Source: Candidatus Amesbacteria bacterium (lineage in GTDB: Bacteria > Patescibacteriota > Microgenomatia > CAZETR01 > Amesbacteraceae). From it: 11,539 bases of DNA. The DNA lies in contig JAUXUE010000065.1 of assembly GCA_030681075.1 (NCBI GenBank), forward strand, positions 1-11,539, read 5' to 3'. The notes below the pieces were generated by a model, which saw nothing but the letters and a program-made list of their open reading frames with translations, searched no databases and was not told the DNA's origin. A program made the translations under genes and the position numbers. Each line of letters starts with the position of its first letter. Position 1 is the first letter of the stretch. Positions 2 to 10,907 of the stretch are shown piece after piece.

Positions 2-1399
2 CCAAATTATGATGGAAAATATAATGTGACTCTAGCTACCCGTCAACCCGGTAGTACTATAAAACCCGTGGTCTATCTGACGGGGCTTCGTCAGGGTTTT
101 ACCGCATCGACTATGCTTATAGATACAAAGACTTCTTTTCCTGGTGGCGATAAACCGGAATATGTACCCGAAAATTATGACGGTAAATTTAGAGGACCAA
201 TATTGGTTCGGGAAGCGCTTGGAAATTCTATTAATATCCCTGCTGTAAAGATGCTCTCATTGGTTGGCATTAAAAATATGATGCAGATGTCCTATGATCT
301 GGGAATCAAATCATTGGAGCCGACTTCGGATAACCTAAAAAGAGTCGGTCTGTCTGTAGCATTAGGTGGTGGTGAGGTTAGACCACTTGACATAATTTCT
401 GCCTATTCAGCTTTTGCCAACGGGGGTATTCGACGTGACCCAATATCAATCCTCAAGGTAACTGACGCCAATAACCGGGTTCTAGAAGAGTGGAAGCCAT
501 CGGAAGGTTTACGGGTTATGTCATCGGGTGAAGCCTTTATTATTTCCAATATTTTGTCTGATCCCAAAGCCCGGGATATTACATTTGGACCGAGGAGTCT
601 AATTAATGTCGAAGGAAAAACTATATCTGTAAAGACGGGTACAACCAATGATAGGCGTGATAATTGGACTATTGGCTGGACTCCGACAGTCATCGTCGGA
701 GTCTGGGTCGGAAACAATGACAATACTCCCATGAAAGAAGTCGCCTCAGGGGTGACAGGAGCAGCACCAATTTGGCGTAAAGTCATACTCTCTGCCCTCA
801 AGGAAAAGTTGGACGAGCCTATTAATCCCCCATCAGATATTATCCAATTGGATGTAGATAAAATATCAGGTTATGTTGCTCATGACGGATTAGACTCCAA
901 AAAAGAATACTTTATCAGAGGCACAGAGAGCTTTGACGACGATCCAATTCACAAAAAAATTCGTGATTGTAACGGCGACCTTAAAGAAGCTTTGATATTT
1001 AAAGAAAAAGATCCGTTTGAAAAAGAGGGTTTGAATCAGTGGCAAATAGGAATAGATGAATGGCTAAAAGGGCAGACTGATGCGAAGTATCATCCTGAAA
1101 ATATTCAATCGTGTGGTAACCAAATCTGGATTACTATGCAAAGTCCTCCTGATAAATCCCGTGTCGATACCAACGATGTGGAAATACGATTTGATGTGAC
1201 ATCACCAAGTCCGATCAAGAAAGTCGAAGTCTCAGTAGATGGAGTGCTCAAACAAACATTGGTCGGTGAACCCTGGAAAGTAATTGCCAATATGCCAAAT
1301 GCCAGTTATCACAAGATTGATGTAGTAGTAACAGACGAATCAGGAAATGTGGGATCAAGATTTGTGGAAATCGGGGTCAACCAAGATTTCTCTAAATGA
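2..1399 (+). CDS. Class A penicillin-binding protein (PBP1A type), C-terminal part, 5' end outside window
   Basis: This is the transpeptidase half of a bifunctional peptidoglycan synthase that cross-links stem peptides outside the cytoplasmic membrane. The reading frame is open from base 2, so the gene begins left of the window and the GTG at 26 is not a start. The three transpeptidase motifs are in order: SxxK as STIK (serine codon 53-55, in the context RQPGSTIKP), SxN as SIN (227-235), and KTG (632-640, followed by TTND). The transpeptidase fold ends near base 810. After a linker, about 90 residues (from roughly base 1127) look like an Ig-like beta-sandwich, ending in a VVVTDESGNVGSR strand typical of such domains. 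The glycosyltransferase domain and membrane anchor would lie upstream, unseen. The last 45 bp overlap the convergent pheT gene, and no terminator is visible. The family call is firm; whether it is PBP1A or a related paralogue is open. Confidence 0.93.
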   Translation, partial: PNYDGKYNVTLATRQPGSTIKPVVYLTGLRQGFTASTMLIDTKTSFPGGDKPEYVPENYDGKFRGPILVREALGNSINIPAVKMLSLVGIKNMMQMSYDLGIKSLEPTSDNLKRVGLSVALGGGEVRPLDIISAYSAFANGGIRRDPISILKVTDANNRVLEEWKPSEGLRVMSSGEAFIISNILSDPKARDITFGPRSLINVEGKTISVKTGTTNDRRDNWTIGWTPTVIVGVWVGNNDNTPMKEVASGVTGAAPIWRKVILSALKEKLDEPINPPSDIIQLDVDKISGYVAHDGLDSKKEYFIRGTESFDDDPIHKKIRDCNGDLKEALIFKEKDPFEKEGLNQWQIGIDEWLKGQTDAKYHPENIQSCGNQIWITMQSPPDKSRVDTNDVEIRFDVTSPSPIKKVEVSVDGVLKQTLVGEPWKVIANMPNASYHKIDVVVTDESGNVGSRFVEIGVNQDFSK

Positions 1400-3220
1400 A
1401 GCAATGTCTTCATTTGACAGTTGTTTATTTTTATCATGATAGGTTATCCTCAAAGTTAATTTATCACCATATTTTTCTATAAACTCAATATTCTTAATAA
1501 GCGGACTGACTGATTTTATTTTATTGACAAGCTCCTCATAACTTCCGGACAGATTAATATTTATATCCTCGATAATCGGAGGATAAATAGACTGAATAGC
1601 ATAATGATTTACAAAAGCTGGTAAATTGTTTAATAATTCATCGACATTTATTTCCACAAAAAATAGCGGAGTCTTGATATTTAATGTAAATGCCAATTTT
1701 GGGTCTAACTGCGATATGAGTGGATTAATGTTTATTATTCCCAGTAATTTTGCCAAAGTGTCTGCGACTCCCTTGATATACAAAATGTCTCCAGTGGCAA
1801 TGAAACCAAGCTTTATAGTCTCAGAATATTTAGTATCATGTTTGTTAAATACTTTTCCCACTTCAAACAATTTGATGTCCAGATTATTTTGATTGAGCAT
1901 TTTTTTGGCGTATTCGCTTAATCCTGGAATAAGTGATGTGCGTAGTGTCGAAATATTGGGATCAGGTGGATTTATTAGGTTAATGGCATCCTTGTCACAT
2001 CCAAATTGTTGAGCTAGTTTATTATTAATCATGGAAAGTGTAATCACTTCATCAAAACCGAGCTTTGTCATGTGATCGCGGAGGGTTTCCTGAATTTTGA
2101 AAGTGGGATATGTCATAGGCTGTGGTGATACGCCAGAAAGAGGAATAGAAGGTATCTGATCATAGCCATAAATTCGAAGAATTTCTTCGACGATATCTGC
2201 AGACTCTTCAATATCAGTTCTAAAAGCAGGTGGCGTTATTTTTAAATTTAATCCAGATTTTGCTACCTTAAATTCCAAAGAATTCAAAATTTTAATTATT
2301 GTATTTATTGGCACTTCGATTCCACCGAGTCTTTTGACTTCACTAGGCTTAAATAAAATTGACTTAGGCTTAAGAGGCTTTGGATAGAAGTCTGACAAGA
2401 GACTTGTAGATTTTGCCGAGGCATACTTTTGCAGTAAATAATAAGCTCTCTCAAGGGCTGGAATTACTTGGGCAGGATGTTGGTGCTTCTCGTGCCTGAC
2501 TGAACCATCGGTCATGATTTTTAATCGTCTTGACGAGCGACGACAGTTTGCTTGGTTATATGTTGCGGCTTCGAGGGCTATTTCAGTAGTATTGTTCGTC
2601 ACTTTTGATTCGAGTCCTCCGATTAGAGTTAAACATTGGACTTTTTCGTCGTCACAAATAGCCAAATCTTTTGATGTTAAAACCACTGTTTGTCCCTGCT
2701 GAATAGTTGAGAACGGTTCTCCGTCTTTAGCTGGACGCAATGAGAGTCTCTTTCCTTTTAATTTGTCGAGATCAAAAGCGTGCATGGGTTGGCCTGTTTC
2801 AATCATGACGTAATTTGTAATATCGACAACGTTATTTATTGTTGGTACTCCCCAACTTGCCAATCTTTTGATCATCCAATCTGGCGAGGGTCCGACCTCT
2901 ACCTTTAGAGAAAAAGCAGTATAGCGATAGACCATATTAGATGCGGCTTTGTCTACTTTTACAAATGGGCATTTAATATCGGTTTTAGGTAGCTTTTTGA
3001 TTTCTGGTAATTTCAATTTTTGATTAAATACTGTGGCCACTTCGCGAGCTACACCAATAAGTCCTAATAAATCTGGCCTATTTCCGCGAAGTTCCAAGTC
3101 TATTACATCACCTTTGGTCTTATCGAGCATGTGACCGATAGCTGTCAACTTATCAGTCAAAGATTTTGTATCCTTGGGGAGCTTGACATAATCAGACAAC
3201 CAGCTGAGAGGTACATTCAT
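1355..3220 (-). CDS. pheT: Phenylalanine--tRNA ligase beta subunit, short form lacking the EMAP/OB domain
   Basis: Beta subunit of the cytosolic (alpha-beta)2 enzyme that charges tRNA-Phe. It has 621 residues, against about 800 in E. coli. The visible order is a short N-terminal segment (1-34), the B1 continuation LELRGNRPDLLGLIGVAREVA (42-62), the B3/B4 editing region (about 95-265, with VVDITNYVMIETGQPMHAFD at 131-150), B5 (about 285-355), the catalytic-like core (about 365-535, with STLRTSLIPGL and LFEVGKVF), and a C-terminal FDX-ACB anticodon-binding domain (about 545-612). The roughly 110-residue tRNA-binding OB (EMAP) domain normally inserted after residue 38 is absent, and the chain runs straight from GHMLDK into GDVIDLELRGNRPD. 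The B3/B4 stretch usually reading TEASxRFERGVDP is diverged here (TDGSVRHEKHQHP). The ATG overlaps the pheS stop by 4 nt, so translation is probably coupled. It is the last gene of the operon and overlaps the opposing PBP gene by 45 bp. Confidence 0.96.
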   Translation of the reverse strand: MNVPLSWLSDYVKLPKDTKSLTDKLTAIGHMLDKTKGDVIDLELRGNRPDLLGLIGVAREVATVFNQKLKLPEIKKLPKTDIKCPFVKVDKAASNMVYRYTAFSLKVEVGPSPDWMIKRLASWGVPTINNVVDITNYVMIETGQPMHAFDLDKLKGKRLSLRPAKDGEPFSTIQQGQTVVLTSKDLAICDDEKVQCLTLIGGLESKVTNNTTEIALEAATYNQANCRRSSRRLKIMTDGSVRHEKHQHPAQVIPALERAYYLLQKYASAKSTSLLSDFYPKPLKPKSILFKPSEVKRLGGIEVPINTIIKILNSLEFKVAKSGLNLKITPPAFRTDIEESADIVEEILRIYGYDQIPSIPLSGVSPQPMTYPTFKIQETLRDHMTKLGFDEVITLSMINNKLAQQFGCDKDAINLINPPDPNISTLRTSLIPGLSEYAKKMLNQNNLDIKLFEVGKVFNKHDTKYSETIKLGFIATGDILYIKGVADTLAKLLGIININPLISQLDPKLAFTLNIKTPLFFVEINVDELLNNLPAFVNHYAIQSIYPPIIEDININLSGSYEELVNKIKSVSPLIKNIEFIEKYGDKLTLRITYHDKNKQLSNEDIASFREILVDPDFHKS

Positions 3221-4212
3221 ATTTTATATTCCAAATTTCCATTAAATAATGCTCTAATATCATTTAATTTATAGCGTGACATGGTGATTCTATCCAGACC
3301 CATTCCCCAAGCAAACCCTGAATATTTTGCAGGATCAATGCCTACCATGCGAAACATATTGGGGTGAATCATCCCCGCCCCAAGCATTTCGACCCATCCC
3401 CTATTTTTACAGACGCTACAGCCTTTTTGCTGACAAAATTGGCAATCAATATCTACTCCTACACCTGGCTCTACTTGGGGATAATATTTGCAGCGAAAAC
3501 GCGATTTTCTTTCTGGTCCGAAAAACATATGGATAAATGTTTCGAGAGTCGACTTCAAATTAGCCATAGTAATATTTTCACCAACCGCAATGCCTTCGTA
3601 TTGAAAAAATATCATATGATTAGAAGCACTGACATTCTCATAGCGATAGGATTTTCCCGGGAAAACAAATCTAAAAGGTGGTTTGTGCGTCGCCAATATA
3701 TGGGCTTCAAGACTTGATGTATGGGTGCGGAGTAAAATATCTGGTTCTTTGATATACAAAGAATCCTGTAAATCTCGAGCTGGGTGGTCCTTTGGTAAAT
3801 TTAGACGATTATAATTAAATTCATCGTCCTCAATTTCCGGACCATCGGCTACACTAAATCCCAAATATCTAAAGATGTCGTTCATTTCTCGAGCCACAGC
3901 ACTTATCGGATGCATTAGACCTACTCGTACTGGCTTTCCGGGTAAAGTCTGGTCAATATTCTCAGAAACTTTTCTAGTATTAAATTTGATTTCATCTAGA
4001 GCGTTTTCAATTGCAGATTTGGCTTCACTAAATATCCGCCCTATATCTGCTTTTTCCTCACTACTCAAATCTTTAAAATCTTTTGCGATCTGTGTGAGCG
4101 ATCCATTTTTACCCAAGTAATTTATCCGTAGTCTTTCCAGCTCAGAGGTATCGGAGGCTCCCATTATCATAGCCAAAGCTTCATTCTTGATATTTATCAA
4201 TTTGTTTTTCAT
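3217..4212 (-). CDS. pheS: Phenylalanine--tRNA ligase alpha subunit
   Basis: Catalytic alpha subunit of PheRS, 331 residues, a normal length. Residues 1-85 form the basic N-terminal helical coiled coil that grips tRNA. The class II core follows: motif 1 around 101-119 (HPISAVAREMNDIFRYLGF), the RTHTSS segment at 162-167, motif 2 around 181-207 (arginine in SYRYE, then FFQYEG), and motif 3 at 299-320 (GFAWGMGLDRITMSRY, with the conserved GxGxxR). Four cysteines at 257, 260, 265 and 268 (DCQFCQQKGCSVC) form a likely zinc knuckle just before the conserved GWVEMLGAGMIHPN. This insert occurs in many bacterial PheS proteins but not in E. coli. Its start overlaps the rplT stop by 4 nt (ATGA) and its stop overlaps the pheT start in the same way. 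No clear ribosome-binding site precedes the ATG, which fits translation coupled to rplT. Confidence 0.97.
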   Translation of the reverse strand: MKNKLINIKNEALAMIMGASDTSELERLRINYLGKNGSLTQIAKDFKDLSSEEKADIGRIFSEAKSAIENALDEIKFNTRKVSENIDQTLPGKPVRVGLMHPISAVAREMNDIFRYLGFSVADGPEIEDDEFNYNRLNLPKDHPARDLQDSLYIKEPDILLRTHTSSLEAHILATHKPPFRFVFPGKSYRYENVSASNHMIFFQYEGIAVGENITMANLKSTLETFIHMFFGPERKSRFRCKYYPQVEPGVGVDIDCQFCQQKGCSVCKNRGWVEMLGAGMIHPNMFRMVGIDPAKYSGFAWGMGLDRITMSRYKLNDIRALFNGNLEYKI

Positions 4213-4556
4213 GCCTGAGGAAAACCAGCTTTTCTGACTATGGCTTCAAAAGCCTTTGGTTGACGGACCACAAGATCCCCCATTATCTTACGGTCGACTT
4301 CTATTTTGTTTTTCTTGACACCATCTATAAATTTGGAATAAGAAACACCAAACGTCTTTAGGGCTGAATTGATACGTACGATCCAAGTTCTTCTTAGGTC
4401 TCTCTTTTTGAGTTTTCTCCCGTTGAATGCATATTGTCCAGCATGAAGGACTGCTTCAGCTGCCACTTTGTAAAGCCGATTTTTGGTCATCCGATAGCCC
4501 TTGGCTAGAGCCAATACTTTGTTGTGTCTTGCTCGTCTGTTGTTTTTTACTCGCAT
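4209..4556 (-). CDS. rplT: 50S ribosomal protein L20 (bL20)
   Basis: Primary-binding 23S rRNA protein needed early in 50S assembly. It has 115 residues, close to the usual 117-120. It begins MRVKNNRRARHNKVLALAKGYR, matching the standard MARVKRG..ARHKKVLKLAKGYRG start with a few residues missing. The usual internal signatures follow: NRLYKVAAEAVLHAGQYAFNGRKLKKRDLRRTWIVRINSA, then a C-terminal globular part (KNKIEVDRKIMGDLVVRQPKAF). It is strongly basic. It lies 1 nt after the rpmI stop and overlaps pheS by 4 nt. In other bacteria L20 represses its own operon by binding a leader or the infC-rpmI junction. Here the rpmI start lies inside infC, so any such operator would have to be within coding sequence, and I cannot see one with confidence. 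Confidence 0.98.
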   Translation of the reverse strand: MRVKNNRRARHNKVLALAKGYRMTKNRLYKVAAEAVLHAGQYAFNGRKLKKRDLRRTWIVRINSALKTFGVSYSKFIDGVKKNKIEVDRKIMGDLVVRQPKAFEAIVRKAGFPQA

Positions 4557-4557
4557 A

Positions 4558-4752
4558 TTATTTACCCATGACCTTTCTAATCTTGTTTGAAATAGTCTTA
4601 CCCAATTCTCGTATTAAACGATGTCTTCGGAGTTGGGCTGCTCCTTTGCGGCTTCGCAAATGCCTACCAAATGAGGCTCGGTGCAAAACCTTACCGTTTT
4701 TGGTAATTTTCAGTCTCTTGGTAATTGCTTTTCTAGTTTTTATTTTCGGCAT
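4558..4752 (-). CDS. rpmI: 50S ribosomal protein L35 (bL35)
   Basis: Small basic 50S protein of 64 residues, normal for the family. It starts MPKIKTRKAITKRLKITKNGK, the canonical MPKMKTxKxxxKRFK opening. The middle and end (HRASFGRHLRSRKGAAQLRRHR..) also fit L35. The frame is open further upstream to an ATG at 4782, but I place the start at 4752. The family always begins MPK(I/M)KT, and AGGAG sits 4 nt before this ATG, while the upstream ATG has no such site. With this start rpmI overlaps the 3' end of infC by 13 bp. This AGGAG is the clearest Shine-Dalgarno sequence I found in the operon, so L35 may be initiated partly independently of infC. Confidence 0.95.
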   Translation of the reverse strand: MPKIKTRKAITKRLKITKNGKVLHRASFGRHLRSRKGAAQLRRHRLIRELGKTISNKIRKVMGK

Positions 4753-5249
4753 ACTGCTCCTATATACTGCTTGCCTACCCATTTGGGCGCTTGCTCTATT
4801 TTCGATATATCTGCCAGAGCCAGTACTGCTCTCTGCCAGACAGTATCGCCAAACTCTTTGTGAGTGAGCTGTCGACCTACGAATTTTATCACAAACCGGA
4901 CTTTGTCGCCATCGGTCAAATAATTTCGGGCTTTGGTCATCTTTGTTTCAAAGTCGCCTATTGCCATAAATGGAGTCATGCGAATATCCTTTAGTTCGAC
5001 TTTCTTTTGGGATGATTTGGCTTCACGCTCTTTTCGAGCAAGCTGATACTTGAATTTTGAGTATTCTATTAGCTTGGCCACAGGAGGCATTGCCTGAGGG
5101 GCGACCTCCACCAAATCAGTTTTTAGTTTTTTGGCTTCAGCCAGAGCATCTTCTTTGGACAATACTCCGAGCTGGGTTCCATCCTCACGCAAAACTCTCA
5201 ATTCTACAGCCTGAATTTGGTTATTGATTCTATAATGTACAGTACTCAC
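4740..5249 (-). CDS. infC: Translation initiation factor IF-3
   Basis: IF3 binds the 30S subunit, prevents premature 50S joining and checks the initiator tRNA and start codon. The protein is 169 residues. The N-terminal domain (about 6-75) carries YRINNQI, TQLGVLSKEDAL, DLVEVAPQAMPPVAKLIEYSKFKY. A lysine-rich linker follows (KEREAKSSQKKVE), then the C-terminal domain (about 84-165) with ELKDIRMTP, KARNYLTDGDKVRFVIKFVGRQ and EQAPKW. The usual PPVCKIMDYGKF reads PPVAKLIEYSKF. The start is GTG at 5249-5247, sharing a 4-nt GTGA overlap with the thrS stop. IF3 genes often use non-AUG starts to sense their own product (E. coli uses AUU). GTG is less discriminating, so regulation of that kind is only a possibility. 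No Shine-Dalgarno is evident, so coupling to thrS is likely. Confidence 0.96.
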   Translation of the reverse strand: MSTVHYRINNQIQAVELRVLREDGTQLGVLSKEDALAEAKKLKTDLVEVAPQAMPPVAKLIEYSKFKYQLARKEREAKSSQKKVELKDIRMTPFMAIGDFETKMTKARNYLTDGDKVRFVIKFVGRQLTHKEFGDTVWQRAVLALADISKIEQAPKWVGKQYIGAVCRK

Positions 5250-7612
5250 TTACGGTTCATTATAGCATCTAATATTTGGTTTTTGAATTCTTCGAGTGTT
5301 AGAACTTCGGATTCCTTTTTACCACGAGTTCTGACAGAAACACTCTGTGCCTGCGCCTCTTTATCTCCTGTGACTAGTATGTATGGCACTTTTTGCATTT
5401 CAGCATCTCTTATTTTGGCTCCCAGTGATTCGCTTCGTGAGTCTAATTCACATCGAATATTAACTAATTTCAACGAATCTGTTACTTTGGTAGCGTATTC
5501 CAAATGTTTTTCGGAGATTGGTAACACAGATACTTGGACTGGTGCCAACCATACTGGAAATGCGCCACCATAGTGCTCGATAAGTATTCCGAAAAATCGT
5601 TCCATTGATCCAAAAACTACTCGATGCACCATCACGCACTGTTTTTCTTTGCCATCTTTATCTATATATGTAACATTAAATCCACGACCCAATTTTTTGA
5701 GATATATTGCCAGATTTTCTCTGGTCTTAAACTTATGTTTAAAAGTTTTTAGCTTCCAAAAATCATCAATATCGTCCTCTGTGGTTTCGGCATTTGCTGG
5801 TTGATTGAAGTCAAATTGGACAGTTCCCAATTGCCATTCACGACCAATAGAATCCTTGACTTTTAAATCGATTTTAGGTCCGTAAAATACACCTTCTCCC
5901 TCGTCAATTTTATAATCAAATCCTTCTGAAACAGCAGCTTTCTTGAGTGATTCCTCAGCAAAGTCCCACATTTCAAGTGTGCCTAAATATTTTTCGGGAC
6001 GTGTAGATATATATACTTGATAGCTCGAAAAACCAAATAATGCGTAAACGTCTTTCATCAGTTTTAATACACCACATACTTCATCTATTACCTGTTCAGG
6101 GGCACAAAAAATATGTGAATCATCTTGCGTAAATCCTCGAACTCGTGTCATTCCATGTAAGACGCCAGCACGTTCATATCTATAAACTGTCCCGAGTTCT
6201 CCGATGCGCATTGGTAACTCACGATAACTTCTGGGGTGATCATTGTATATTTGGATATGATTTGGGCAATTCATAGGTTTTAGCAGTTCCTCTGTTTGAT
6301 AGTCTGGTGCACTTTCCCCTTCGATAAATTCATGGAGCATTACTGGAAACATGGAATTTATATATTTTGACAGATGACGGCTTTTGACAAACATATCCAT
6401 ACTAGCAATGTGGGGTGTGAATACCAATTGGTACCCTCGTTTGTAGTGTTCTTTGCGCCAATAGTCCTCGACTATATTTCGGACAATTGCTAATTTTGGA
6501 TGCCATAAAATCAATCCCTGACCCGTAAGCATATTTGTAGAGTAAAGATCTAAATCTTTACCTAATTTTCTATGATCTCTTTTCTTTGCTTCTTCAAGCA
6601 TATTTAGATAATTATCCAATTCTTTTTGGGAAGGCCAGCAGGTGCCGTAGATGCGAGTCAACATTTTGTTTTTTTCATCCCCGCGCCAGTAAGCACCGGC
6701 AATTGACATGAGTTTAAAATATTTCAGTTCTTGGTCTGGGTGTTCACAGTGCCCTCCCCGGCAGAGATCAGTAAATTCGCCAGATTTATAGAGTGTAAGT
6801 CCAGCCTCTTTGTATTGGGTTGCCATCTCAATCTTGTAGACATTCTTGGCAAATCTCTTTTCAACGTCAGATAATTCCACATCAATTTTTTCAAATCCCT
6901 TCCATGCCTTGACCAGTTCATGCATTTTGTCTTCAATGGCCGGCAAATCGGTATCTGATATTTTCAAATTATCAAAGTCATAATAAAAACCATTCTCTAT
7001 GGAAGGACCAAGGGTCGGTAATGCCTTTGGATATAAATCCAGAATCGCGGCCGCTAATAGATGTGCGCAGGAATGGCGGAGATTAGCAAGGGCCGTATCA
7101 CCGAATATTATTTCCTTTTGCATACCTGATGATTTAGCAATATCAGCGAGCCGAGGTTTAACAATCGACACATAATCTTTTGCCAAAAGCGCCATAGATC
7201 GATCTAGGCGCGCAGCATTGAAGAAGATCTCTTCGTTAGTGAGTAAAGACGGGTCGACTATTAATTCTAGTTCTGGACTAAACGAGAAGGGTAACACTGT
7301 TCCAACAACGCTTTGAGCCAGTTTTTCGGTTAATTCTTGCGGGGTAAAAGAGACATAGCTGGCGTGCAGGAGGGTTTTGATGGCATTAAAGTCAATTTGC
7401 TTATCACCAGGAACGACGCCCAAGACATATTTTATTTCTTTCTTTCCGAGATTAACCGTCAATACCATGCATTTGGCAGCTTGTGAGAGCTTGTTCCCAC
7501 GCATTGGACTGACGATTTCTGTTCGTCCTTCTGGCACATGATCGATCAGACGATACTTTGCATGGTGCTTATCAAGCAAAGCTATTAATTTGGAATATAA
7601 GTCGTTTTTCAT
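5246..7612 (-). CDS. thrS: Threonine--tRNA ligase with N-terminal YbaK/ProXp-like deacylase domain replacing TGS
   Basis: Class II synthetase charging tRNA-Thr in the cytosol. At 788 residues it is about 145 longer than E. coli ThrRS (642). Residues 8-160 are not a TGS domain but read as a YbaK/EbsC-type aminoacyl-tRNA deacylase: QAAKCMVLTV with the likely catalytic lysine K47, YVLGVVPGDKQID (62-74), LELIVDPSLL, EIFFNAARLDRSM (128-140) and a closing RLADIA. Next comes the standard N2 editing domain, with H180/H184 in RHSCAHLL and C284/H288 in DLCRGGH. The catalytic core follows: zinc ligands C449 (PMNCPNH), H500 (QDDSHIF) and H663 (MVHR), and motif 2 RYE..HGMTRVRGF. The anticodon-binding domain (about 685-785) closes it. 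An extra block of about 37 residues (roughly 604-645) sits between QFDF and the H663 zinc ligand. M1 is the only start that keeps the YbaK domain; it follows a T-rich tract and lacks a well-placed Shine-Dalgarno. It is the first gene of the operon. Confidence 0.96.
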   Translation of the reverse strand: MKNDLYSKLIALLDKHHAKYRLIDHVPEGRTEIVSPMRGNKLSQAAKCMVLTVNLGKKEIKYVLGVVPGDKQIDFNAIKTLLHASYVSFTPQELTEKLAQSVVGTVLPFSFSPELELIVDPSLLTNEEIFFNAARLDRSMALLAKDYVSIVKPRLADIAKSSGMQKEIIFGDTALANLRHSCAHLLAAAILDLYPKALPTLGPSIENGFYYDFDNLKISDTDLPAIEDKMHELVKAWKGFEKIDVELSDVEKRFAKNVYKIEMATQYKEAGLTLYKSGEFTDLCRGGHCEHPDQELKYFKLMSIAGAYWRGDEKNKMLTRIYGTCWPSQKELDNYLNMLEEAKKRDHRKLGKDLDLYSTNMLTGQGLILWHPKLAIVRNIVEDYWRKEHYKRGYQLVFTPHIASMDMFVKSRHLSKYINSMFPVMLHEFIEGESAPDYQTEELLKPMNCPNHIQIYNDHPRSYRELPMRIGELGTVYRYERAGVLHGMTRVRGFTQDDSHIFCAPEQVIDEVCGVLKLMKDVYALFGFSSYQVYISTRPEKYLGTLEMWDFAEESLKKAAVSEGFDYKIDEGEGVFYGPKIDLKVKDSIGREWQLGTVQFDFNQPANAETTEDDIDDFWKLKTFKHKFKTRENLAIYLKKLGRGFNVTYIDKDGKEKQCVMVHRVVFGSMERFFGILIEHYGGAFPVWLAPVQVSVLPISEKHLEYATKVTDSLKLVNIRCELDSRSESLGAKIRDAEMQKVPYILVTGDKEAQAQSVSVRTRGKKESEVLTLEEFKNQILDAIMNRK

Positions 7613-7965: not shown

Positions 7966-7994
7966 ATGTTATCATATCATTTTGGTGGTGTCGA
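7966..7994 (-). promoter_or_regulatory. Promoter of the 69-aa gene, leaderless arrangement
   Basis: Minus strand: -35 TCGACA (7994-7989, one mismatch to TTGACA), a 17-nt spacer ending in TGA, -10 TAACAT (7971-7966), then 6 nt (AGATAT) to the ATG at 7959. The TGn before the hexamer makes an extended -10. A start 6-7 nt downstream of the -10 would coincide with the A of the ATG, so no 5' leader is expected. The -35 and upstream -10 region lie inside the 3' end of the 82-aa gene. Confidence 0.6.
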
Positions 7995-8225
7995 TTCGAT
8001 ATATTTAAGCTTGTCATCTATCCACTTTACTTCACCAAAGTTTAGTTCAACCTGGACAAATTGACCTATGCTCCAACCAGGGGCGATTATTTTATTTTTC
8101 AATTTATTAAATTCATCTCTACTCAGTCCTCCATAGAGCATTGCGTTATATACACGGCATAATATTTGTGCGCGTTCTTCGTGTTCTGGAAAAATCTCTT
8201 TAGGTATACTCTTTTTATATAGCAT
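7977..8225 (-). CDS. Hypothetical protein (82 aa)
   Basis: Unrecognised 82-residue soluble protein. The N-terminal half (MLYKKSIPKEIFPEHEERAQ, then a helix containing RVYNAMLYGGLSRDEFNKLKNK) looks helical. The C-terminal half (APGWSIGQFVQVELNFGEVKW) looks like short beta-strands with two tryptophans. There is no signal peptide, membrane segment or metal-binding motif, and a single cysteine. The ATG at 8225 is preceded by GAGGG only 3 nt away, too close for an ideal ribosome-binding site. Codon choice resembles its neighbours. It is transcribed divergently from nrdR and is followed 17 nt later by the 69-aa coiled-coil gene. The pair has the size and spacing of a small two-gene unit, but nothing in either sequence identifies it as, for example, a toxin-antitoxin system. 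Confidence 0.6.
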   Translation of the reverse strand: MLYKKSIPKEIFPEHEERAQILCRVYNAMLYGGLSRDEFNKLKNKIIAPGWSIGQFVQVELNFGEVKWIDDKLKYIESTPPK

Positions 8226-8332: not shown

Positions 8333-8752
8333 ATGAAATGTCCATATTGTACTTCAAGCCAATATTTTGTGACCAATTCCCGTGTGAGCGGTAACGCTAT
8401 TTGGAGACGGAGAAAATGTCAAAAATGCTTAGGTGTGTTTACGAGTATGGAAAAAATAACCTTGGGTAATCTAAAAGTAACCAAGAAATCCGGGATTGCC
8501 GAAAGATATGATTCAAATAAAATATTTTTGGGGATTTTCAGAGCTGTTAATGAGTCTAAATGGATCTCAAGAAATAAAGCCAGAATAATAACTAAAATCG
8601 TGACCGATAAAGCGGAACAAGAATTGATTAAGTTGAGAAGAGAATATATTTCCAGTAAGCAAATTGGTGGTATTGTCCTTAAAGTTTTAAAAGTTGCTTC
8701 AAACGAAGGCTACCTAAGATTTCTGCCCTATTTCAAGAGACAATCTTCTTGA
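8333..8752 (+). CDS. nrdR: NrdR-type transcriptional regulator (zinc ribbon plus ATP-cone)
   Basis: NrdR represses ribonucleotide reductase genes when its ATP-cone binds dATP/ATP. The protein has 139 residues, slightly short for the family (about 150). Residues 1-40 form a zinc ribbon with C3/C6 (MKCPYC) and C29/C32 (RRRKCQKC), including the NrdR signature SRVSGNAIWRRRKCQKC and a diverged FTTYE equivalent, FTSME. The ATP-cone spans about 47-130, from VTKKSGIAERYDSNKIFLG to IGGIVLKVLK and GYLRFLPYFKR. The last element usually reads VAYVRFASVYR, so the C-terminal part is diverged. The ATG giving MKCPYC is the standard start. No Shine-Dalgarno precedes it. It is divergent from the 82-aa gene, and its last 20 bp overlap the convergent nfo gene. 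No ribonucleotide reductase gene is in the window, so its targets are elsewhere. Confidence 0.88.
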   Translation: MKCPYCTSSQYFVTNSRVSGNAIWRRRKCQKCLGVFTSMEKITLGNLKVTKKSGIAERYDSNKIFLGIFRAVNESKWISRNKARIITKIVTDKAEQELIKLRREYISSKQIGGIVLKVLKVASNEGYLRFLPYFKRQSS

Positions 8753-9602: not shown

Positions 9603-9674
9603 GGGCACTTAGCTCAGGAGTAGAGCATTGCATTGACATTGCAAGGGTCGGGGGTGCGAAGCCTCCAGTGCCCA
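9603..9674 (+). tRNA. tRNA-Val (anticodon GAC)
   Basis: A 72-nt cloverleaf. The acceptor stem GGGCACT/AGTGCCC is perfect (9603-9609 with 9667-9673), followed by discriminator A and no encoded CCA. The D arm is GCTC/GAGC with a 7-nt loop AGGAGTA. The anticodon stem TTGCA/TGCAA (9628-9632 with 9640-9644) closes the loop TTGACAT, with anticodon GAC at 9635-9637, reading Val codons GUC and GUU. The variable region is GGGTC. The T stem GGGGG/CCTCC has one G-U pair. The T loop is odd: TGCGAAG instead of TTCGAAT, so position 55, normally the near-universal pseudouridine, is G, and position 60 is also G. The strong promoter and intact stems argue for a transcribed gene. Its 3' end directly abuts the stop codon of the opposing M20 gene. 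Confidence 0.9.
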
Positions 9675-10907
9675 CTAAACTGAAAAGAATCTTTCACTAA
9701 ATTGTAAGCCGAGGTCTATGAGGTCGATTCTAAAGTTCTCATTATCACCATGCATGTTGCAGTCACTATTTGCGAGAGCTACAGATAAAGTATCTACCCC
9801 AAATATTTCTTTGATATCAGAAATAAATGGAATTGCCCCGCCAACATTTTGGAAAAAGACCGGTTTACCATAAATCCCTTCTAGGAGTTTTGCTGTCGTA
9901 ATAAATAATTCAGATGAAGTATTTAGTTTTACTGGATTGTGCAAACCAACTGCCTTTATTTCATACTCTACATATTTTGGCGTATTTGAAGCCACATAAC
10001 TTTCAAATAATTTTAAAATATCTTGCGGTTTTTGAGAGGTGACAATCCTGAAATTTAATCTGACTTCAGCAGTCGCCGGTACAATATTGGCAAAACCGGT
10101 ATCAATATATCCCGACTTAAAACCCGAAACTTCAATAGTTGGACACAAGCCTGTTTGGGTAAAAAAATCATATTTACCAATAGTCTTGATATCCATGCTG
10201 ACGGAAGCATTATTAGAAATTTGATCAGCTGTAATTTCATCCATACCAACGGTAATGGGCGTAATACCAGATACAAATTTTGCCAGTTCAAAAGCGGCGT
10301 TGGGAATTGCTCCGCCATATATTCCAGAGTGGACATTATTTTTGGCAGTTTTAAAAATAAGCTTGACATTAAAGCCTCCACGCAGAGAAGCTTCAATTGT
10401 GGGCCGGTCATTTATTATTTCCCCATCGGAAACCAAGACTATATCGGATTTTAATTTATCTTTGTGCAATCTTAATAGGTCTGACATGTCGTCGTTACCC
10501 GTTTCTTCATTACCTTCAATCAAAAACTTGATATTGTATTTAAGTTTGCCTTCGGAAGCCAATTTGCAGACAGTATAGATATGAATAAGATTTTGACCCT
10601 TATTGTCCACTACTCCCCGTCCGACGAGCCTGCCATCAATTTCTTTTAGATCAAATTGGTCACTTGGCTGAACATCGTAATGTCCATATATCAAAACTGT
10701 TTGAAAATCAGGATTAACAATTAAACTTCCAAAAACTATCGGATTGCAAGTTGGTCCCTGAATAAACTCCACAGTAAAGCCAAACTTTTGCAAATAAGCT
10801 TTTATCCATTCGGCAGTTTTGAGCATCTCGCCCTTGTATTGCGGATCTGTCGAGACACTCCTTAGCGCCACATATTCGGTCAATAAATTTTTGAAATCTG
10901 AGGTCAT
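9675..10907 (-). CDS. M20 family zinc metallopeptidase (dipeptidase/DapE/ArgE-like)
   Basis: Cytosolic co-catalytic zinc hydrolase of the M20 family, which covers dipeptidases, carboxypeptidases and amidohydrolases such as DapE and ArgE. It has 410 residues, a normal length. The metal and catalytic residues are all visible: H76 in YGHYDVQP, D101 in GRGVVDNKGQ (bridging), the E134/E135 pair in EGNEETG, D161 in VSDGE, and H386 near the C terminus in NMHGDNE. The dimerisation (lid) domain spans about 175-290 and includes H193 in NVHSGIYGG. The YGHYDVQP/GRGxxDNKG wording and NEExG resemble the dipeptidase branch more than DapE, but the substrate cannot be fixed from sequence. A peptide-scavenging role would suit a reduced genome; that is inference. 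The start at 10907 follows an extended -10 by 7 nt. The TAG stop abuts the tRNA-Val 3' end. Confidence 0.93.
   Translation of the reverse strand: MTSDFKNLLTEYVALRSVSTDPQYKGEMLKTAEWIKAYLQKFGFTVEFIQGPTCNPIVFGSLIVNPDFQTVLIYGHYDVQPSDQFDLKEIDGRLVGRGVVDNKGQNLIHIYTVCKLASEGKLKYNIKFLIEGNEETGNDDMSDLLRLHKDKLKSDIVLVSDGEIINDRPTIEASLRGGFNVKLIFKTAKNNVHSGIYGGAIPNAAFELAKFVSGITPITVGMDEITADQISNNASVSMDIKTIGKYDFFTQTGLCPTIEVSGFKSGYIDTGFANIVPATAEVRLNFRIVTSQKPQDILKLFESYVASNTPKYVEYEIKAVGLHNPVKLNTSSELFITTAKLLEGIYGKPVFFQNVGGAIPFISDIKEIFGVDTLSVALANSDCNMHGDNENFRIDLIDLGLQFSERFFSV

Follow-up and report, generated by a model that had tools for sequence, protein, structure and literature searches.

The DNA that was analysed, referred to as the window, is the 11,539-nucleotide stretch of contig JAUXUE010000065.1 from a Candidatus Amesbacteria genome (G000). 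Its minus strand carries thrS, coding for a threonyl-tRNA synthetase (ThrRS) with an additional N-terminal domain, followed by infC, rplT, pheS and pheT; all features are collated in Table 1. Upstream of thrS, an 82-residue ORF (7977-8225, minus strand) gave a sub-threshold match to Bacteriocin_IIi (14.6 bits, cut-off 25), an nrdR-like gene (8333-8752, plus strand) scored 73.4 bits against TIGR00244, under the cut-off of 124.65, and a tRNA-Val(gac) gene was located at 9603-9675 (plus strand). A T-box leader upstream of thrS was rejected: the Rfam search (E ≤ 1) returned only a tRNA in the whole window, and the leader folded no better than shuffled sequences (z 0.74). An assembly chimaera was ruled out by the presence of the same fusion in a second genome (G228); the order of an M20-like gene (named by eye), thrS and pheT also recurs in G008, a genome of the same family.

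Table 1. Features of the thrS locus (positions in the window).
Feature	Position	Strand	Basis
thrS, threonyl-tRNA synthetase fusion, 788 aa	5246..7612	-	ORF/translation; NCBIfam thrS TIGR00418, E 5.4e-193
FthB-type (INS/YbaK superfamily) putative deacylase domain, aa 1-160	7133..7612	-	PF04073; identity to FthB; tree; predicted YbaK fold
Catalytic Lys47 codon (AAKC motif)	7472..7474	-	aligns with conserved Lys of FthB, YeaK and YbaK
GXXXP loop, aa 104-108, GTVLP	7289..7303	-	FthB GTILP, YeaK GAIPP
Linker, aa 161-175	7088..7132	-	holds ATG at codon 164
N2 editing domain, approximately aa 176-345 (ends approximate)	6578..7087	-	HxxxH 180-184, C284/H288
Class II catalytic core match, aa 440-607	5792..6295	-	PF00587, E 3.6e-41
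Insert in catalytic region, aa 607-642	5687..5794	-	alignment with related ThrRSs
Anticodon-binding domain, aa 693-781	5270..5536	-	PF03129, E 3.1e-23
infC, directly downstream of thrS	4740..5249	-	IF3 domains
rplT, follows infC	4209-4556	-	ORF, named by eye
pheS, follows rplT	3217-4212	-	ORF, named by eye
pheT, follows pheS	1355-3220	-	ORF, named by eye

The original prediction, made from the sequence alone, had described the N-terminal region as a YbaK-superfamily domain rather than TGS. The region matched PF04073 (YbaK/tRNA_edit) with 50.5 bits (cut-off 25.5; E 1.7e-14 to 2.8e-13), and no TGS match was obtained for the ThrRS in the Pfam search at E ≤ 1. The predicted structure of the domain shows a YbaK fold, four of the five models being poor and the loop by G104 poorly modelled. 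K47, which had been taken for the family lysine, was confirmed as such by alignment (Table 1); a conserved catalytic lysine and a GXXXP loop are described as features of the INS superfamily (PMC11286415; papers are cited here from excerpts). The N2 editing site was also found intact as predicted, H180, H184, C284 and H288 being present and this HxxxH/C/H set invariant across 24 aligned ThrRS rows, and tRNA_SAD was matched over residues 273-322 (E 1.9e-08). With the lysine, the GXXXP loop and the N2 residues in place, the polypeptide would hold two potential proofreading sites, as had been proposed. The 36-residue insert is common to one Patescibacteria ThrRS type and absent from both G228 and a genome of the same genus (G001), a pattern that suggests exchange of thrS between lineages. 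A ThrRS devoid of the additional domain could begin at the ATG in the linker, possibly the old start; in G228 the first comparable start codon is 187, immediately ahead of the HxxxH motif.

The further proposal that the domain stands in place of TGS did not hold. Of the named Patescibacteria ThrRSs, 16 with an undamaged 5' end were compared (L003-L017 and L051, from Woesebacteria, Gottesmanbacteria, Collierbacteria, Shapirobacteria and others), and none of the 16 leaves space for a TGS domain: their matches begin at query residue 170-175, with 6-38 residues ahead, counted from stop codon to match. A direct exchange of TGS for YbaK is thereby rejected; since the compared ThrRSs had already lost TGS, the domain was added rather than swapped in. 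A search with the complete protein gave matches in 58 of 59 genomes near G000, the exception being G053. The matches reach ThrRS strength (E ≤ 3.2e-42) in 56 genomes and are weak in the other two, G022 and G058; a match spanning residues 1-788 was obtained only in G000 itself. The ThrRS matches of G006, G014, G015, G019, G039, G048 and G054 start at approximately residue 337-345, and that of G043 starts at 439, residues 319-429 forming a separate piece; these eight proteins (frames of 397-439 aa) seem, from their sequences, to lack both the N2 editing domain and TGS. G000 has, in addition, a gene for a free-standing YbaK-type protein (C90), which is of a different kind and shares 29% identity with the window domain.

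The relationship of the N-domain was narrowed by comparison with known deacylases. The identity to E. coli YeaK (ProXp-ST1) was 35% (54/156) and that to E. coli YbaK 23% (27/117); the best of 27 matching plasmid records was pSCAT of Streptantibioticus (Streptomyces) cattleyicolor, with 65.6% (101/154). The matching ORF (L257:8977-9474, plus strand) lies 124 bp from a divergent ORF (L257:6786-8852, minus strand) with SHMT and Aldolase_II domains, which we read as the two domains of a fluorothreonine transaldolase; these enzymes are described as two-domain proteins (PMC7162832). FthB is the fluorothreonyl-tRNA deacylase of Streptomyces cattleya (McMurry and Chang 2017, via PMC7408626, PMC7162832 and PMC11295145); it is reported to be conserved in 4-fluorothreonine loci, where it counteracts fluorothreonyl-tRNA (PMC7408626, PMC7162832), and to be related to ProXp-ST1 (review PMC11295145). 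On account of its transaldolase-like neighbour, together with the described locus of FthB and its kinship to ProXp-ST1, the pSCAT protein was identified as FthB; the identification was made from gene neighbourhood, the record carrying no annotation at that ORF. Four other actinobacterial relatives (L258-L261; 49-58%) showed no transaldolase within 8 kb on each side, so the FthB clade extends beyond the fluorothreonine loci and may act on a substrate other than fluorothreonine. An fthB gene of a fluorothreonine locus would be expected beside the genes for the transaldolase and the exporter fthC; a search of G000 and G228 for the transaldolase matched only its SHMT half (28-31%). A position was scored as FthB-side if its residue is constant in five FthB-clade rows and does not occur in seven YeaK-side rows, and as YeaK-side if its residue is constant in the YeaK-side rows and missing from the FthB clade (L262 being counted on the YeaK side): the window and G228 domains each carry the FthB-side residue at 10/11 positions, and the window domain carries 0/8 of the YeaK-side residues. 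The GXXXP loop is among the distinguishing positions, and both it and the lysine are intact in the two ThrRS fusions.

Maximum-likelihood phylogeny gave the same placement. The N-domains of the two ThrRSs are each other's closest relatives in a 129-row tree (100/99) and join FthB (100/92) inside a seven-row, free-standing actinobacterial clade (100/100), the actinobacterial rows of which come from plasmid records only; this clade lies within a 14-row YeaK clade (100/100) that holds none of the 55 free Patescibacteria, 33 AspRS, 14 TrpRS, LeuRS and NUDIX domains. A 123-row tree, from which the AspRS domains of G013, G036, G041, G047 and G051 and the NUDIX domain were omitted, gave the same placement, with the FthB join at 100/93; both trees leave out 11/14 ProRS rows, and their bootstrap was unsettled (correlation 0.983 and 0.987). 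In a 49-row tree the ThrRS domains join FthB at 98/95. Support is weak (59/80) for the eight-row set uniting the FthB clade and L262. That the domain arose from YbaKs of Patescibacteria, whether free or attached to AspRS, was rejected with the 49 rows (p-AU 4.5e-06): the constrained tree grouped the ThrRS domains and 33 Patescibacteria domains (25/55 free, 8/28 AspRS) to the exclusion of 14 others, among them the LeuRS domain of G036. On these comparisons the window domain is a member of the FthB clade and lies outside the sampled Patescibacteria YbaKs; the original assignment to the ProXp-ST side of the superfamily was borne out, the FthB clade lying beside ProXp-ST1. Phage-borne copies were rejected, FthB having only three matches (25-28%) in 50,697 phage records; in viral contigs, peptides of the window domain found no relative, while the family alignment found 66 YeaK-like loci at 33-37%.

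The second fusion, in a genome of a different family (G228, family f8), is encoded in a frame of 769 aa identified as thrS (E 1.5e-205) and is followed by infC, rplT and pheS (named by eye) in the same order as in the window. The fusion is the only ThrRS-strength match in either assembly (approximately 90% complete for G000 and 82% for G228). The two N-domains share 115/159 residues (72-73%), and the ThrRS bodies approximately 49% (211/431 over aa 176-606 and 70/146 over aa 643-788). In a tree of the bodies (62 of 92 rows, SH-aLRT only) the window falls into a 22-row set (100), its nearest branches there being weak (45 and 11), and G228 pairs with G052 (99), the ThrRS of which is a 595-aa frame without a YbaK-type domain. 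Inheritance of one fused gene as a whole was rejected with moderate confidence, since forcing the two bodies together costs 100 lnL (p-AU 0.0255, quick tree). Third-position GC in G228 was 58/158 for the domain versus 339/580 for the rest of the gene (Fisher p 1.6e-06), with 0.53-0.57 for pheS, rplT and infC; the contrast in G000 was slight (67/160 versus 203/614, p 0.04). At least in G228, the domain therefore looks like an immigrant from a source of lower GC, and its presence on two differing ThrRS bodies together with this foreign composition indicates that it moves between thrS genes. Between G000 and G228 the residue is kept in 114/155 codons of the domain (pN 0.191, pS 0.852, saturated); a 70-codon block of the anticodon-binding domain gave pN 0.294 and pS 0.943. 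Conservation at least as good as that of this block speaks for selection on the protein, and such conservation is not special to the N-domain, the anticodon-binding block being similar.

The distribution of the fusion was examined in overlapping samples of the host's own class and phylum and of the family and order of G228. Matches to the domain were found in 99 of 373 class genomes, the one other close match being that of G228; the next had 38% identity in a 164-aa frame, and nine longer frames of 499-638 aa (G119, G288, G290, G291, G315, G319, G331, G352 and G360) had 26-32%. In the phylum sample 81 of 379 genomes gave a match, the best after G000 being a 181-aa frame with 33% identity; identity peaked at 38%, over 79 residues of a 153-aa frame, and longer frames had 24-29%. 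The 24 genomes from the family of G228 and the 27 from its order contained no further such fusion. With two genomes in samples of 373 and 379, the fusion is rare, in agreement with the initial impression of an unusual ThrRS architecture. A literature search over titles and abstract openings, with subscription papers mostly outside its scope, returned no description of a ThrRS fused with an FthB/YbaK-type domain.

Other YbaK fusions were recorded in a survey of 280 class genomes, 140 of which gave a match; the AspRS and TrpRS counts are lower bounds, five AspRS and one TrpRS being named by NCBIfam and the rest by BLAST to these or by Pfam. AspRS with a C-terminal YbaK domain occurs in at least 32/280 genomes (L089, L092, L127, L133, L165, L173 and others); both non-discriminating and bacterial types are represented (five checked), and the lysine and GXXXP are intact in 33/33 domains. 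AspRS is not known for editing. An N-terminal YbaK-fold domain is attached to TrpRS in at least 12 genomes (L171, L175, L177, L178 and L182-L189), with tandem copies in two genomes and an added B3/4 domain in G013 or tRNA_bind domain in G136; the catalytic lysine is missing in 14/14, and from its sequence this domain looks like a pseudo-editing, perhaps tRNA-binding, module. Single cases are a LeuRS with an N-terminal YbaK domain, lysine and GXXXP intact (G036, L087:733-3813), and a fusion to NUDIX (G271, L155:1402-2328). YbaK and Peptidase_S11 share one frame in two phylum genomes outside the class (L251 and L255; G471 and G373), and on a Rhizobium lusitanum plasmid ketol-acid reductoisomerase domains are followed in one frame by a YeaK-type domain (L267:706-1977).

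The fusion is thus a known deacylase subfamily on a known synthetase, real, rare and functional-looking. With a probability of roughly 60%, the protein would be a ThrRS with three sieves, namely the synthetic site, the native N2 editing site and the N-terminal FthB-type aminoacyl-tRNA deacylase domain, the last of which most likely clears tRNA-Thr charged with threonine analogues. We infer that the N-domain would hydrolyse, in cis and ahead of tRNA release, tRNA-Thr bearing analogues that pass the synthetic site and escape N2. Candidate substrates would be 4-fluorothreonine, known for FthB, and, equally possibly, other 4-substituted or beta-substituted threonines. FthB is selective for fluorothreonyl- over threonyl-tRNA. 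Since ProXp-ST1/2 are reported to hydrolyse Thr-tRNA-Thr in vitro (PMC11295145), a cis-acting domain of the ProXp-ST1 kind could waste this product; an FthB-like one should not. Threonine analogues are likely targets on three grounds: ThrRS is described as accepting 4-fluorothreonine and beta-hydroxynorvaline as excellent substrates (PMC10250548), N2 presumably handles serine, and the residues of the domain are FthB-type. The selective reason would be exposure to threonine-analogue antimetabolites; self-protection of a producer is unlikely, given that transaldolase matches in both G000 and G228 are confined to the SHMT half, and our guess is that the analogues are made by other organisms. Of the function originally proposed, a putative deacylase of the ProXp-ST side is retained, whereas, in place of clearance of Ser, Ala or Cys mischarging, a threonine-analogue substrate is the better first guess, judged from FthB-clade membership.

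Three other explanations were weighed. A general Ser/Thr deacylase resembling ProXp-ST1, backing up N2 against Ser-tRNA-Thr and acting on other Ser/Thr mischarging in cis and in trans, is unlikely but the most serious of them: the domain does lie inside the YeaK clade (100/100), and ProXp-ST1/2 are described as acting on both Ser- and Thr-tRNAs (PMC11295145), but its distinguishing residues are FthB-type and none YeaK-type, serine clearance would be redundant because the N2 residues are intact, and broad Thr-tRNA hydrolysis beside a ThrRS would be wasteful. That the domain is non-catalytic, or mainly a tRNA-binding appendage replacing the lost TGS-tRNA contact, is improbable. Although TGS is missing in the compared ThrRSs, and the loss of the lysine in all 14 TrpRS-attached domains of the same class means that the fold is seemingly used without catalysis there, both ThrRS fusions retain the lysine and GXXXP, and 16/16 related ThrRSs manage with neither TGS nor N-domain. 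Slimmer still is the chance of a recently acquired free rider of little effect, for which rarity (two genomes) and the foreign composition in G228 would speak; against it stand the conservation at saturated synonymous sites, the occurrence on two different ThrRS bodies and the intact motif residues.

Comparison with known systems places the suggested three-sieve ThrRS as follows. FthB has 66% identity to the domain, the same lysine and the GT(I/V)LP loop, and is its sister in the tree, but is free-standing and trans-acting and its gene lies beside that of the fluorothreonine transaldolase, whereas the window domain forms part of a ThrRS, and the search of G000 yielded no transaldolase. YeaK belongs to the same clade (35% identity) but is free-standing, of broad Ser/Thr specificity, and differs in loop (GAIPP) and residues. 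In the ProXp-ala-ProRS fusions of protists an INS-superfamily deacylase is likewise N-terminal on the synthetase whose tRNA is checked, and the full-length ProRS of T. brucei is reported to deacylate better than its N-terminal INS-like domain alone (PMC11286415), a precedent for a benefit in cis; synthetase and subfamily are different there, and the window concerns a bacterium with a ThrRS that retains its own N2 site. Domain fusion and swapping are also reported for aminoacyl-tRNA synthetases of CPR bacteria, where B2-TyrRS keeps the appended domain while the synthetase part differs (Mukai 2017, PMC5370408); B2, however, is described as an OB-fold RNA-binding domain on TyrRS and not a deacylase.

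A broader reading, offered tentatively and at somewhat below even odds, is that the domain is a portable module of antimetabolite defence: Patescibacteria may have acquired an actinobacterial FthB-type deacylase and joined it to ThrRS, after which it would have passed between the thrS genes of distinct lineages, in a class that has repeatedly fused YbaK folds to synthetases (ThrRS, two AspRS types, LeuRS and TrpRS), some of them without known editing. If so, in cells that take up external threonine the synthetase would itself screen out threonine-analogue antibiotics that occur in nature. An FthB-type domain on ThrRS would extend deacylase fusion to another synthetase and to proofreading against threonine analogues. 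It becomes testable whether bacteria outside the fluorometabolite producers meet threonine analogues, and whether a deacylase-synthetase fusion avoids futile hydrolysis of Thr-tRNA. The ThrRS of this uncultured Patescibacteria genome may thus have a built-in second check against threonine look-alikes.
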